Shown one piece after another: positions 23,500 through 34,213 of a stretch of 34,213 nucleotides of DNA. Origin of the DNA: a virus; the IMG/VR virus record IMGVR_UViG_3300042938_001487, positions 1 through 34,213 of that record; one strand, given 5' to 3'. The notes beneath the pieces were generated by a model. It was not told where the DNA came from and made no database searches. It saw nothing but the letters and a program-made list of their open reading frames with translations. Position 1 is the first letter of the stretch; each line of letters begins with the position of its first letter. Position numbers and translations under genes: made by a program.

Positions 23500-23927
23500 C
23501 GCGTTGCCTCCAGTAGTTCCCGCACGCGCTTGGCCTCGCGCTCCATTGGCTCGAGGAGGTCGAGAGCGCGGGTCAGCTTGTCTTTGTCCCATGCTTCGGG
23601 GTTGCTCTTAGCCATCCAACGCTCCACCGATTGCTGCAGGTGCCTCAGGACATCCGTCTCAGGGTCACGCTCGAGCATGGCTGGCTTCGTGGGGTCAATA
23701 CCCATTTTCAGGAAAAACATCGCTTGAACCTTTGCCACCGTCTCAATGCCAAACTTCTTTGCGCCGAATGCCTGGGATTTGAGTATCAGGTAGCGCGATG
23801 CTTCTTTGTAATAGAGCAGCTTCCTATGTCCATCTTCCCAATCCTCCACCGTGATATCCTCAGGGATCGTGTAGGTTTTAAGTTCTTCGGCTGTTAATTG
23901 CTGTTCTGGTATTATTTGTAGTTTCAT
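23496..23927 (-). CDS. Hypothetical protein (143 aa)
   Basis: Starts MKLQIIPEQQLTAEELKTYT, then IPEDITVEDWEDGHRKLLYY; mostly helical and charged. Ends with ALDLLEPMEREAKRVRELL. Not recognised. It lies in the operon between the 196-aa HTH protein and the terminase genes, with ATGA overlaps on both sides. Confidence 0.7.
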   Translation of the reverse strand: MKLQIIPEQQLTAEELKTYTIPEDITVEDWEDGHRKLLYYKEASRYLILKSQAFGAKKFGIETVAKVQAMFFLKMGIDPTKPAMLERDPETDVLRHLQQSVERWMAKSNPEAWDKDKLTRALDLLEPMEREAKRVRELLEATR

Positions 23928-24514
23928 TTTTGTTTTTTCATTTGGTTGAAAATAGTGAGAGTTAGCGCGGCGAGGTTGTCCATTTTGGGTGGTGGTGTCT
24001 TGCCCTTGCCCGCGCGGTGTTGGCGGCGTTCCTCCGGGGTCATGGCGGCAAATCGTGCGCGTGCGGATTCAGAGTAAACCTTGGAGGCTGATGCGCGTTT
24101 TTGTTGCACTCCTCGGAAGTTATTGCGCTGGGATTGTTTCTTTGCGTGCCAATCGAGAAGCTGCTTACTTACGCCCACCCGCAAAGCCAGTGATGTCAGG
24201 CTCTCCCCTGTCTGGTTGAGAAGCCAGTAGAGTGCGACAAATTGCATGCCGACATGCTCAGCGTTGATTTTCCCGGCGCGGGGGATGTTGACCGCAAATG
24301 CTCGGCTGAGTTCGTCCGCATTGTTTTGGCGGCTCGATTCAGTCCCGCGGTTAGCGAGCCATTCAATGAGGCGTTTAGCCTGGGCAATGTTTAACCCAAG
24401 CTCCTCGGCGAGTATTTCCTCGGGCAAATCAATTTCATCCGCCATGTCTGGCATATAAATGCCACCGTTCTTTTCAAACAGGCGGGTAGCTTCTGCGGGT
24501 GAGGCTGAGATCAT
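23924..24514 (-). CDS. HTH-containing hypothetical protein (196 aa)
   Basis: Early helical segment LPEEILAEELGLNIAQAKRL near residues 30-49 and a second helix-turn-helix-like segment SLTSLALRVGVSKQLLDWHA near 106-125, where a phage regulator or replication accessory would bind DNA. The C-terminal part is basic (RASASKVYSESARARFAAMT, then RRQHRAGKGKTPPPK). Function unknown; a DNA-binding role is inferred. Confidence 0.7.
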   Translation of the reverse strand: MISASPAEATRLFEKNGGIYMPDMADEIDLPEEILAEELGLNIAQAKRLIEWLANRGTESSRQNNADELSRAFAVNIPRAGKINAEHVGMQFVALYWLLNQTGESLTSLALRVGVSKQLLDWHAKKQSQRNNFRGVQQKRASASKVYSESARARFAAMTPEERRQHRAGKGKTPPPKMDNLAALTLTIFNQMKKQK

Positions 24515-24705
24515 TGTAGGTGTTCGCTAAGTATGGTTTTGAGGTGGTTGTATTTCTGCACTTTGTCGAATTCGTCGCCGTGGATTTCGTATGTCGTCCA
24601 GGTGTGCGGGCACTTGTTGCAGTGCCTTCTGCGGTAGGTGTGTTCGTTGTTTTGCCGTGAGTCCGTGACGTGGCTCGTGCTTTGGCACTTGGGGCAGGGT
24701 TTCAT
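24511..24705 (-). CDS. Zinc-ribbon protein, Ogr/NrdR-like (64 aa)
   Basis: Two cysteine pairs, CPKCQSTSHVTDSR (residues 4-7) and HCNKCPHTWTTYE (about 29-32), form a single zinc ribbon, followed by a helical tail. The order C-P-x-C ... R-R-x-C-x-x-C-x-x-x-W/F-T-T-Y-E is as in the zinc ribbon of NrdR and of small phage transcription activators. It may be a late-gene regulator, inferred. Overlaps helicase stop by 4 nt. Confidence 0.75.
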   Translation of the reverse strand: MKPCPKCQSTSHVTDSRQNNEHTYRRRHCNKCPHTWTTYEIHGDEFDKVQKYNHLKTILSEHLQ

Positions 24706-31521: not shown

Positions 31522-31673
31522 AGGTTTTCTGTTTTGGTGTGGAGGGACGGGATGCCGTGCAGGCTCAAAAACTTGGCGTTCGCCTCGGTGAGGCAGGTGG
31601 CGCGGACCAAATCGCGGATCGGTCCGAAGAGCGGGTCATAACCTTCGCAGAGGTAGAGGCGGGCGGTTTTCAT
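31518..31673 (-). CDS. Small hypothetical protein (51 aa)
   Basis: MKTARLYLCEGYDPLFGPIR and RATCLTEANAKFLSLHGIPS; a compact alpha/beta protein by look. ATG overlaps the stop of the excisionase-like gene and its own stop overlaps the next ATG. Not recognised. Confidence 0.6.
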   Translation of the reverse strand: MKTARLYLCEGYDPLFGPIRDLVRATCLTEANAKFLSLHGIPSLHTKTENL

Positions 31674-31873
31674 TTCGCGGGCCTCCGGTTCGAGGTCGCG
31701 CCGATCTGGTCAGACAACCATTGGCGGAAAGGCTTTTCAAAAATCCTCCAGCCGCCACGGTCCGAAAGCGGTTTGCAGGCTGAGAAGGTTCCGCGCCGAA
31801 TATGGCGAAGGATTGTCTCTGTGTGAGCGCCGGTTTCCTCGGCGGCTTGCTTCACTGTGAGCGTGCCTTTCAT
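31670..31873 (-). CDS. Excisionase-like MerR-type HTH protein
   Basis: 67 aa. TLTVKQAAEETGAHTETILR then HIRRGTFSACKPLSDRGGWR and IFEKPFRQWL: the helix-turn-helix with wing typical of the HTH_17/excisionase family. In temperate phages such proteins bend DNA at att sites to direct excision. Position in the first early genes near the integrase supports this. Could also be a plain transcription regulator. Confidence 0.78.
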   Translation of the reverse strand: MKGTLTVKQAAEETGAHTETILRHIRRGTFSACKPLSDRGGWRIFEKPFRQWLSDQIGATSNRRPAK

Positions 31874-32034
31874 TTCGCGGCCTCCTTCTTGGCCTCTTTC
31901 TTTGCCTGCTGGCGGATGGCTTCAGCCACCAGCCTGCTGATTGGCACTCCACCGTTCGCATCCGCTTTTTTCTTCAGGTAGTCGAAGAGTTCAGCCGGGA
32001 TGCTCACGCTTGTTTTCATGTATCCGGTTTGCAT
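31870..32034 (-). CDS. Ribbon-helix-helix regulator (first gene of the leftward operon)
   Basis: Start at ATG 32032-32034 gives 54 aa; an ATG at 32019 would give 49. MKTSVSIPAELFDYLKKKAD and PISRLVAEAIRQQAKKEAKK show the beta strand (TSVSIPA), helix and helix pattern of RHH proteins with a basic C-terminal tail. Repeats TGGTGCTACCG lie at and just upstream of the start, as expected for an autoregulated RHH gene. It is coupled to the excisionase-like gene by ATGA. Confidence 0.75.
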   Translation of the reverse strand: MQTGYMKTSVSIPAELFDYLKKKADANGGVPISRLVAEAIRQQAKKEAKKEAAK

Positions 32035-32066
32035 GGTGCTACCGATATTATTGGTGCTACCGGTAG
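32034..32066. promoter_or_regulatory. Operator-like direct repeats upstream of the RHH gene
   Basis: Two direct copies of TGGTGCTACCG (32034-32044, 32052-32062), 18 bp apart, the second extended to a perfect palindrome CTACCGGTAG (32057-32066). A third related copy TGGTGTTACTGGTAG lies at 32187-32201. The spacing of roughly two helical turns and the position over the start of the RHH gene suggest repressor binding. Confidence 0.6.
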
Positions 32067-32115
32067 AGCAATAAAAATCGGTCAATGGGGTGTTCGTCTT
32101 ATACGACGATTTTAG

Positions 32116-32204
32116 TTGACATCCGCATGGGGATTAAGTTTGCGGGCGAAAATAAATTTTCGCTAAAATTTGAACAACGATGTTTCTGGTGTTACTGGTA
32201 GGAT
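32116..32204 (+). promoter_or_regulatory. Likely promoter/operator region for the rightward RHH gene
   Basis: AT-rich spacer. A possible -35 TTGCGG (32140-32145) and -10 TAAAAT (32164-32169) are 18 nt apart. A perfect 8-bp inverted repeat GCGAAAAT/ATTTTCGC (32146-32163) sits between them, an ideal operator position. A further repeat copy TGGTGTTACTGGTAG ends 4 nt before the ATG. A TTGACA at 32116 lacks a fitting -10. Promoter strength is not known. Confidence 0.5.
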
Positions 32205-32501
32205 ATGAAAGATGGAAAATTCAAAAAGTTAAACATCAGCCTTCCTCCCGATTTGCATGGGTGGATCAAAAAAAAGCAGGCTGATTTCAAGAGAGAAAAC
32301 CCGCTCGGGAAACTCGAGATCAGCCCAATTGTTGCTCACTGCATAAAGGCAATGAAAGAATCCGAAGAATCTCCGCAAATTTCTTCAAGCAAAGCGTCAA
32401 AAGTCTCCCCGGTTGTTGGTGCCACGATGGCCACGCTGTCAGAGAATTTAGACTCTGGGCCATCCACAGCCACCAAGAAGCACTGCCGACGGGCTTCTTA
32501 G
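32205..32501 (+). CDS. Ribbon-helix-helix-like protein, candidate lysogeny repressor
   Basis: The only plus-strand gene, 98 aa. N-terminal half KKLNISLPPDLHGWIKKKQA and LEISPIVAHCIKAMKESEES shows an RHH-like strand-helix-helix pattern; the C-terminal half is polar and Ser/Thr-rich and looks disordered. It is divergent from the other RHH gene and ends opposite the integrase. No CI-like HTH repressor was found elsewhere, so this may be the lysogeny regulator. This is inference. Confidence 0.7.
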   Translation: MKDGKFKKLNISLPPDLHGWIKKKQADFKRENPLGKLEISPIVAHCIKAMKESEESPQISSSKASKVSPVVGATMATLSENLDSGPSTATKKHCRRAS

Positions 32502-32546
32502 GTCAAATTTACCCCCACGCGGATTTCGGGGGGGGGGGGGGTAAAT
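32475..32546. repeat. Hairpins and poly-G tract between convergent genes
   Basis: AAGAAGC (32475-32481) pairs with GCTTCTT (32493-32499) at the end of the plus-strand gene. Next, ATTTACCCCC (32507-32516) pairs exactly with GGGGGTAAAT (32537-32546); the second arm is part of a run of 14 G (32528-32541). The two hairpins may end transcripts from both sides. The long G run is unusual and could vary in length. Confidence 0.6.
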
Positions 32547-32590: not shown

Positions 32591-33616
32591 TTAAACAGCC
32601 CACCACGCCCGCCAATCTGCCCGCCGCGATGGCACGGCATAAACCCTTTTGACCATCGCCGTGGTCGAGTGTCCAAGCTGGTGCGCCGTCTTGCCGGCAT
32701 CCTGACAGCGCCCCAGGTGGTAGGTGGCGAAGGAATGCCGCAGAGCGTTCTCAGGGAATTGCGACCACGGCAGCTTGCCCGCCTCGTGCAGTCTCAAAAT
32801 CAGCGCATGGCGCTCGGCATAGATGCGCAGTGAGTCCGGCGGCAGAATTAGCCCCTTCTTTTTTTCGTCCAGAAAGAACGCCGTCCGTTTGGTCAGCGGC
32901 TCGGTGAAGTCCACGATCCGCTCTGGCAGTCCGGTGGATTGTTTGGAAACCTCGCGCCGGATCTCAATCTCTCCCACGGCGGCGTCCACATCCTCCCAAC
33001 GCATGCGCCGAACCTCGATGGACCTCAAGCCCGCAAAGCCACCCAGGAGAAACCACGCCCGCAGCGGGTCGCTCATTTCCGCCTCCAAGATCGTTACCAT
33101 TTCCGCCGCTGTCACGAGTGACCGCTTCGCCTCCGCTTTTGGAGCCTTGATCCTCCGCAGCGGATTCCGGTCAAGAATCTCCATGTCCACGCACCACGCG
33201 AAAAAACCGCTCGCGTAGCGATGCCAACCCGCGCGTGTCGTCGGTGATCCTTCGATCCCGTCAAACCACCTCCCCGCCTTCAGCGGGGTCACATTCGCCA
33301 CCGGCCCCTCAAACTCCTCCAGCAACTTGCCGCAAACCCGTTCGATCTTCGCTCTGTGATCCTTTGACGCCTTCGCTTTCGTCGCAATGTAATCCCTCAC
33401 CGCCGACCGCACAGAAAGCCCTCCCTGATCCTTCTCCCTCAGTCCCTCCGTCCCTGTCTTTTGCAAAGCCTCCAAAAGAGCAGGCCCCGCCGCCCAAGCC
33501 TCCGCCTCCGTCTTAAAAAATCGCCTGATCCGATCCCCCGAAACAACTGCCGGAATCTCCAGTTTCCAAGTGCCGGGTCGAGATGCGTTAGGACTCACAA
33601 AATATCGCGCTTTCAT
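32591..33616 (-). CDS. int: Tyrosine-type integrase
   Basis: 341 aa from the ATG at 33614-33616. N-terminal arm-binding region (MKARYFVSPNASRPGTWKLE), SAM-like core-binding part (KASKDHRAKIERVCGKLLEE, HRYASGFFAWCVDMEI), then catalytic domain: Arg in FAGLRSIEVRRM, box II NALRHSFATYHLG, then HQLGHSTTAMVKRVYA with the likely nucleophile Tyr. The first His of the common H-x-L-R-H box is Asn here. The ending with W-x-x-W is reminiscent of PVC-group integrases. It would recombine attP with the host tRNA-Leu gene. Confidence 0.92.
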   Translation of the reverse strand: MKARYFVSPNASRPGTWKLEIPAVVSGDRIRRFFKTEAEAWAAGPALLEALQKTGTEGLREKDQGGLSVRSAVRDYIATKAKASKDHRAKIERVCGKLLEEFEGPVANVTPLKAGRWFDGIEGSPTTRAGWHRYASGFFAWCVDMEILDRNPLRRIKAPKAEAKRSLVTAAEMVTILEAEMSDPLRAWFLLGGFAGLRSIEVRRMRWEDVDAAVGEIEIRREVSKQSTGLPERIVDFTEPLTKRTAFFLDEKKKGLILPPDSLRIYAERHALILRLHEAGKLPWSQFPENALRHSFATYHLGRCQDAGKTAHQLGHSTTAMVKRVYAVPSRRADWRAWWAV

Positions 33617-33644
33617 GTTGCCCAAACTGTTGCCCGTGTTGCCC
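33616..33644. promoter_or_regulatory. Integrase arm-type repeats, one side of attP
   Basis: Three direct copies of TGTTGCCC at 33616-33623, 33628-33635 and 33637-33644. They lie about 110 bp from the tRNA-like core and reach into the integrase start codon, so binding may also lower integrase translation or transcription. Matching repeats exist on the other side of the core. Confidence 0.65.
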
Positions 33645-33752
33645 GAATTTTCAACCTTAAACGCTTTTGCAAATAGTGGCAGTTTGTGCGGTGTAGCGGC
33701 AACAAAACCCCGCCAACCCAATCCCAGAGCGGCAAAGAAGCCCACCCACCCA

Positions 33753-33808
33753 GTGCCGGCGGCGGGACTCGAACCCGCACTCCGTTTTCACGAAAAGGGA
33801 TTTTAAGT
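33753..33808 (-). other. attP core: 3' half of a tRNA-Leu(UAA) gene
   Basis: Read on the minus strand it starts at the anticodon loop CTTAAAA (anticodon TAA), then TCCCT, the long variable arm TTTCGTGAAAAC typical of leucine tRNA, the T-arm GCGGGTTCGAGTCCCGC, the acceptor strand CGCCGGC and discriminator A, followed by CTG instead of CCA. The 5' half and the other acceptor strand are missing. Integration here would rebuild the host tRNA gene. It lies about 140 bp upstream of the integrase gene. Confidence 0.88.
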
Positions 33809-33845
33809 CTATTCTGTGCGTTTAATAATCAACGACTTGCAAAGC

Positions 33846-33870
33846 TGTTGCCCGTCGTTGCCCTGTTCCC
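33846..33870. promoter_or_regulatory. Integrase arm-type repeats, other side of attP
   Basis: TGTTGCCC (33846-33853), CGTTGCCC (33856-33863) and a partial TGTTCCC (33864-33870), in the same direction as the copies at 33616-33644. The set lies about 40 bp from the core and runs into the stop codon of the winged-helix gene. Confidence 0.6.
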
Positions 33871-34118
33871 TACCCTTTCGGCCTGTAAAAGTTCACATTC
33901 CACCGCCGTCCCTTGACCATGACCTTGGCGACTTTCTTTTCCAATTTGCCCTCGCGCACGGCGGAATCTGCGAGTTGTCGCCCTGCGCCTAATTTGAGAT
34001 TTGAGAGTTCCGCGATCTCTGCGTTGGTCATCCAGCCTTCTCGTTTGAGTTGGTCAGGGTCGCAGACGGCAGCGGATTCAAAGAATGCGCTCCAGGCGGA
34101 TTCTACGGCAGAAGCCAC
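33870..34118 (-). CDS. Winged-helix-like DNA-binding protein (82 aa, complete copy)
   Basis: GTG start at 34116-34118 within the end of the metallophosphoesterase frame. Helix LKREGWMTNAEIAELSNLK then GAGRQLADSAVREGKLEKKV, and a strand end with KGRRWNVNFYRPKG: helix-turn-helix and wing, with a basic C-terminus fitted to bind DNA. It is the last gene before attP in the late direction and may act on att recombination or transcription. The partial copy at 1-198 is another allele of it. Confidence 0.72.
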   Translation of the reverse strand: MASAVESAWSAFFESAAVCDPDQLKREGWMTNAEIAELSNLKLGAGRQLADSAVREGKLEKKVAKVMVKGRRWNVNFYRPKG

Positions 34119-34213
34119 GGTTGGTTTTTTTGTTTTTCGCACAAATTTACACTGGTTGAATTTTCGTTGTAATAGCCCCACGCGAAGCCAGCTGAGTGAG
34201 CCAATGATGCGCG
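33921..34213. repeat. Right copy of the terminal overlap
   Basis: Same segment as 1-293. Bases 34087-34213 equal 167-293 exactly (127 nt); bases before that differ at 17 sites. This is the joining region of the circle. Confidence 0.9.
34103..34213 (-). CDS. Metallophosphoesterase, C-terminal end (partial, cut by right edge)
   Basis: Repeats bases 183-293, that is, the last 36 codons of the 243-aa phosphoesterase with its stop TAG. It is the same gene seen a second time because of the circular overlap, not a second gene. Confidence 0.85.
   Translation of the reverse strand, partial: RASLAHSAGFAWGYYNENSTSVNLCEKQKNQPWLLP

Follow-up and report, generated by a model that had tools for sequence, protein, structure and literature searches.

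A facing pair of predicted ribbon-helix-helix genes as a candidate lysogeny switch in a lineage of temperate phages

Genes and repeats between integrase and excisionase

The window analysed here is the whole IMG/VR virus record IMGVR_UViG_3300042938_001487, 34,213 bases long. Every ORF with a PHROG match lies on its leftward (-) strand, the + strand ORFs having been searched in part. These matches include an endolysin, a holin, tail proteins, a tape measure protein, a head protease, a portal protein and the large and small terminases, together with a DnaB-like helicase, a replication initiator, an exonuclease, a single-strand binding protein, a Sak4-like annealing protein and a Holliday junction resolvase. 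Within the same partial search of the + strand, RHH2 was the sole gene-like ORF in that orientation. An earlier note on this DNA had proposed that RHH2 and its divergent neighbor, RHH1, are two ribbon-helix-helix (RHH) proteins forming a lysogeny switch. We confirmed the gene pair and the positions of both ORFs, which face each other across 170 bases (Table 1).

Table 1. Features of the switch region and of other parts of the window discussed in the text
Feature	Position	Strand	Description
196-aa protein	23924-24514	-	Counterpart of the ~165-aa HTH protein of relatives; lytic strand, ahead of the terminase genes
64-aa protein	24511-24705	-	NrdR-like zinc ribbon (Pfam Zn_ribbon_NrdR 2.9e-10)
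HTH_17 excisionase-like protein	31670-31873	-	67 aa; start overlaps RHH1 stop by four bases; Pfam HTH_17 5.3e-8
RHH1	31870-32034	-	CopG/Arc-like RHH protein, 54 aa; opens the leftward (early/lytic) strand; Cro position
O3	32035-32047	-	Candidate 13-bp operator TATCGGTAGCACC; abuts RHH1 start codon; 12/13 positions invariant in 13 protein-chosen representatives
O2	32053-32065	-	Candidate 13-bp operator TACCGGTAGCACC; overlaps palindrome CTACCGGTAG (32057-32066)
A/T-rich inverted repeat	32146-32163		GCGAAAATAAATTTTCGC; core conserved, outer arms not
O1	32188-32200	-	Candidate 13-bp operator TACCAGTAACACC; just ahead of RHH2 start codon
RHH2	32205-32501	+	98 aa; N-terminal RHH-like domain (~residues 6-52) and variable, low-confidence Ser/basic tail; CI position
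RHH2 C-terminal tail	32361-32501	+	Far more variable than the domain
G run	32528-32541		Stretch of 14 G in the gap between RHH2 and the convergent integrase
Tyrosine integrase	32591-33745	-	Convergent with RHH2; Pfam Phage_integrase 1.1e-7, PHROG 1 2.4e-31; coordinates of the listed ORF, true start probably further in
3' half of tRNA-Leu(UAA)-like sequence	33754-33809	-	Adjoins integrase; probable attP
103-aa ORF	33870-34181	-	Beyond the probable attP; no family match (Pfam, PHROG)

RHH1 most likely starts at the ATG at 32034 rather than at the first in-frame TTG, because relatives lose the second in-frame ATG yet keep the residues MQ[TSN]. The protein matched Pfam RHH_1 weakly (E=0.0018, below the curated cut-off) and PHROG 3180, an Arc-like repressor family, at 4e-6; a PDB profile search yielded nothing beyond a chance match. 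An AF2 model of RHH1 (pLDDT 81) was compared with the PDB by Foldseek, and the top matches were NikR, Arc and ParD2, with probabilities up to 0.98 and E-values above 0.1 that are weak because the protein is tiny; almost all of the matches were RHH proteins, CopG included. With VIA-align, RHH proteins (antitoxins, Arc and CopG) filled nearly the whole list at Z 4-6.2. The earlier note had named structure predictions without an RHH fold as a refutation; the RHH1 model gave an RHH fold by both Foldseek and VIA-align, and these together with PHROG place RHH1 in the superfamily defined by a beta-strand and two helices.

The same note had also called the 98-aa RHH2 an RHH protein and had asked for a structure prediction of it. 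The RHH2 profile aligned to the RHH1 profile across the whole domain (hhalign probability 97.5, E=5.8e-12), and a strand motif, KLN[IV][ST][LI]P, is present in all RHH2 forms and has the counterpart KTS[VIL]S[IL]P in RHH1; alignments of relatives show the strand residues conserved in both proteins. RHH2 itself had no match in Pfam, PHROG or PDB profile searches, and its structure model was of low confidence, the sole RHH match by Foldseek and VIA-align being to ParD2 (Z 3.1), a score equalled by unrelated folds. Support for an RHH fold comes from profile homology to RHH1 and not from RHH2's own model, which matched nothing convincing. We infer that RHH2 folds as a divergent RHH protein whose helices are separated by some six additional residues.

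Between the two genes, the sequence TAYYRGTARCACC has its only three exact matches in the 34-kb window; in 100 dinucleotide shuffles of the whole window the expectation was 0.00 and the largest count 0. The repeats reported earlier, TGGTGCTACCGATA (32034-32047), TGGTGCTACCGGTA (32052-32065) and TGGTGTTACTGGTA (32187-32200), are all present, as is the palindrome listed with O2 in Table 1, and we define three candidate 13-bp operators here, O1 to O3. Three more sites scattered elsewhere in the window lie within two mismatches of TAYCGGTAGCACC and were not counted as operators. An 18-bp near-palindrome, GCGAAAAT-AA-ATTTTCGC, was also found as the earlier note had reported, but it is improbable as an operator, since among relatives just its A/T-rich core is conserved and its outer arms are not; this inverted repeat is possibly promoter-associated instead. 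No clear sigma-70 promoter was found for RHH1 or RHH2, none being assignable with confidence, and we rejected TAATAT between O2 and O3 as a -10 box, those bases not being conserved in relatives. The RHH1 ATG, abutting O3, has no Shine-Dalgarno-like stretch ahead of it. The RHH1 message may be leaderless, as is known for that of lambda cI.

Outside the pair lie genes for integration and excision. The HTH_17 protein also matched PHROG 66, 'excisionase and transcriptional regulator' (9.9e-8). Beside the integrase, the window carries the 3' half of a tRNA and no intact tRNA, and several relatives have the same half-tRNA in this place; integrase and half-tRNA together suggest that this is a temperate phage's attP. 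Lysogeny is predicted for the phage from its integrase, excisionase and probable attP.

Conservation of the module among IMG/VR relatives

We searched IMG/VR by protein and by operator motif and obtained about 40 contigs of relatives. The RHH1 protein search found 41 contigs, and RHH2 faced RHH1 in every one with enough sequence (40/40); the one remaining contig starts just 71 bases upstream of RHH1. Purifying selection acts on both genes, with dN/dS of ~0.02-0.26 for the domains, some distant pairs being saturated: RHH1 ranged from 0.02 to 0.19, and in RHH2 the domain (0.05-0.26) differed from the tail (0.7-0.9). A 27%-identical form can take the place of RHH2 while RHH1 and the operators are unchanged (L064 and L045). 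By tblastn, neither protein had a match in 50,697 annotated phage records.

Two further observations concern the end of RHH2. An ending like STATKKSSRRAG recurs among otherwise different RHH2 types, and near-identical domains bear different tails, which suggests that tails have been exchanged among RHH2 types. Beyond the stop codon, some relatives have a G run of 8-16 at the same place as the window (16 in L053, 12 in L045) and others are without it; these differences in length may be genuine or may have arisen in assembly.

We measured conservation of the candidate operators on the protein-found set, since contigs found by motif are biased towards an intact O3. In 13 representatives of less than 90% identity, none picked by operator, 31/39 operator columns were invariant, as against 41/131 other intergenic columns (Fisher p=9e-8). 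O3 was the most conserved of the operators. The spacing of O2 and O3 was 18 bp in every locus, though the five bases between them vary. Two contigs, L089 and L108, have one extra base between O3 and the RHH1 ATG and an intact operator; the operator is therefore conserved in its own right. Position 5 was always A in O1 and always G in O3 among the 13 representatives, a constant difference that would fit different affinities.

The genes on either side of the module vary in a coordinated way. The gene after RHH1 occurs as seven sequence types, each of which matches HTH_17. Distances between integrases correlate with those between excisionases (Mantel r=0.87), and they do so when RHH1, RHH2 and intergenic distances are controlled for (partial Mantel r=0.85). 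L060 and L051 share 99% of their intergenic DNA, 100% of RHH1 and 94% of RHH2, yet their integrases are 23% and their excisionases 14% identical. Because the types covary around a nearly unchanged switch, we conclude that integrase and its cognate excisionase are swapped together while the RHH module between them stays in place. This covariation supports the identification of the HTH_17 gene as the excisionase and puts the RHH operators at that gene's promoter, so the module would be situated where integration and excision are controlled. The half-tRNA corresponds to other tRNAs in L042/L049 and in L064, and Leu UAA goes with the window's integrase type; the integration site thus seems to follow integrase type.

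The best annotated relatives of the terminase, portal and integrase are Akkermansia phages, with Verrucomicrobia phage P8625 as a further match for the portal, at identities of just 24-26%; the helicase did not show this affinity. A host among the Verrucomicrobiota is thus probable, though not certain. The annotated regulators of Akkermansia phage Moulinsart, considered as a source of a known switch, are not RHH proteins by Pfam. Searches of sequenced bacterial genomes with the RHH1 profile and an 18-bp operator-start motif found no prophage with the RHH pair; the sole two matches, in Cedecea and Xenorhabdus, lack RHH genes and fit chance expectation.

The proposed switch and alternative readings

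According to the earlier note, a CI-like repressor elsewhere would have spoken against a switch made of RHH proteins. We detected no CI-type repressor in 13 contigs, the window included, some contigs possibly being incomplete. Peptidase_S24 had no match in any of them, and Phage_CI_repr had none over the cut-off, the three weak sub-threshold matches all falling in excisionase genes; the HTH domain joined to an S24 self-cleavage domain that marks the lambda CI family was not found. Matches to HTH_3 or HTH_19 in these contigs were confined to a protein of ~165 aa and, in one contig, to the excisionase gene. The ~165-aa protein, present in 7/12 relatives tested, was rejected as a CI, its HTH_3 match being weak and S24 absent. 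Its 196-aa counterpart in the window has a similar N-terminus (41% over 123 aa) and no detectable HTH_3 match, and it may be a late-gene regulator. The window does have HTH genes, namely the HTH_17 gene (31670-31873) and the gene at 23924-24514, which is partly similar to the HTH protein of relatives, but neither resembles CI or Cro; the earlier statement is best put as the absence of a CI/Cro-like HTH gene from the switch position.

We propose that a lineage of temperate phages uses the pair as its primary lysogeny (immunity) switch, in which two homologous RHH proteins occupy the positions of CI (RHH2) and Cro (RHH1), and we put the probability of this reading at roughly two in three. The layout resembles that of lambda in having two facing genes for predicted DNA-binding proteins, with shared candidate operators at both starts. 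The Cro position of RHH1 likewise follows from the layout: RHH1 is followed on the same strand by genes for excisionase, recombination, replication, packaging and structure. DNA binding, repression, lysogen maintenance, the assignment of roles and the nature of the inducing signal are all predictions. What the earlier note had called a lysogeny switch is upheld in part, as a conserved facing pair with shared operators in about 40 contigs; its control over lysogeny, and which of the two proteins would keep the lysogenic state, we infer from the layout.

In the proposed mechanism, RHH2 would be transcribed alone and rightward, and RHH1 would be the first gene of a leftward strand carrying the excisionase, recombination, replication, packaging, structural and lysis genes. 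Both proteins would bind the same family of 13-bp operators. In the lysogen, RHH2 on O2 and O3 would block the transcript of RHH1, excisionase and lytic genes. Where RHH1 is dominant, it would shut off RHH2 through O1 and limit its own operon through O2 and O3, and the constant sequence differences between O1 and O3 could set different affinities. RecA-stimulated self-cleavage is unlikely as the inducing signal because there is no S24 domain.

The features of RHH1 itself raise the question of whether the roles might be reversed, with RHH1 as a low-level, autoregulated maintenance repressor and RHH2 as an anti-repressor or lytic-side regulator. RHH1 is more conserved than RHH2, the most conserved operator lies at RHH1's own start, the missing Shine-Dalgarno-like stretch before its operator-abutting ATG could mean a leaderless message, and the 27%-identical RHH2 form is tolerated beside the same RHH1 and operators. 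Nevertheless, RHH1 appears to belong to one operon with the excisionase and the lytic genes, all of which a lysogen has to keep silent, and a constantly needed repressor is normally not first in such an operon. We consider the reversed arrangement unlikely.

The position of the module between integrase and excisionase would also suit a narrower task, in which the RHH pair controls integration and excision alone, through excisionase dosage, and lysogeny is kept by some other, unrecognized repressor, for which the HTH protein preceding the terminase genes would be a candidate. That protein, with its weak HTH_3 match, is conserved in a majority of the relatives tested, but the window's related protein sits inside the lytic strand and has no divergent partner. 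The operators, moreover, are found at the switch alone. By ORF coordinates the leftward strand has no gap larger than ~130 nt from RHH1 to the region ahead of the small terminase, its genes being closely spaced from RHH1 down to the terminase, and the RHH1 promoter therefore looks like the main early promoter. These features make a role limited to integration and excision improbable.

Regulation of a secondary (P22 immI-like), partition or toxin-antitoxin kind, with no lysogeny switch, is where RHH proteins are commonest, and the structural neighbors of RHH1 include antitoxins, but we regard it as very improbable here, since no toxin, ParA or antirepressor gene adjoins (no toxin family was found among the neighboring genes with Pfam or PHROG, and there is no ant), the operators are not repeated elsewhere as a partition site would be, and the neighbors in relatives are a convergent integrase after RHH2 and, in every type seen, an HTH_17 excisionase after RHH1.

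A broader claim builds on the two-RHH switch: that a complete primary switch of this kind, without a self-cleaving repressor, is the standard device of the lineage and a fixed hub for attP-integrase and excisionase exchange in Verrucomicrobiota phages. We regard the chances for and against it as evenly balanced.

Comparison with known systems

Well-studied phage immunity switches are mainly based on HTH repressors. In the open-licence literature, which our search covered, we found no description of a primary switch made of two facing RHH proteins. If the proposal is correct, proteins of 54 and 98 residues with an unrelated fold can make up a CI/Cro circuit, and it becomes a question by what means such a prophage is induced if not by self-cleavage. 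It would also supply an annotation rule for temperate phages of a poorly studied group, namely two RHH genes that face each other across TAYYRGTARCACC operators and lie between integrase and excisionase, and a very compact genetic toggle.

Among known RHH regulators, the plasmid repressors CopG, Reg576 and ORF56 are small RHH proteins whose structures are matched by RHH1. They act in plasmid copy or establishment control, as the PDB titles also indicate, and, unlike the pair described here, they have no facing RHH partner and no integration cassette.

Arc-type proteins also occur in other phages. YosL of Bacillus phage SPbeta, predicted to be an RHH protein of the Arc type, is connected with that phage's lysis-lysogeny system (PMC10516654). 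It differs in that the master repressor there is another protein, MrpR, and YosL itself is associated with switching on lytic growth. Pseudomonas Pf prophages have Arc-type genes near the excisionase, and in 12/182 prophages these replace the repressor C gene (PMC7549136). However, Pf is a filamentous phage with a single Arc gene of predicted function, and no divergent two-RHH pair is described there.

The immI region of the temperate Salmonella phage P22 encodes small RHH repressors, Arc and Mnt, and RHH1 is near Arc in size and predicted fold. Arc and Mnt regulate the antirepressor Ant and belong to a second immunity region, P22 having c2 as a further, separate repressor (PMC7549136). The locus described here differs in that it has no adjoining ant gene, and our searches detected no repressor of the c2/CI kind.

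The lambda CI/Cro switch is alike in its two facing DNA-binding genes with a few related operators in common, in the Cro-position gene heading the early lytic strand, and in the integrase and excisionase nearby. It differs in the proteins themselves, both of which look like RHH rather than HTH proteins in the window and have no self-cleaving S24 domain, and in the arrangement of the recombination genes: in the window the excisionase directly follows the Cro-position gene, and the integrase converges with the CI-position gene.
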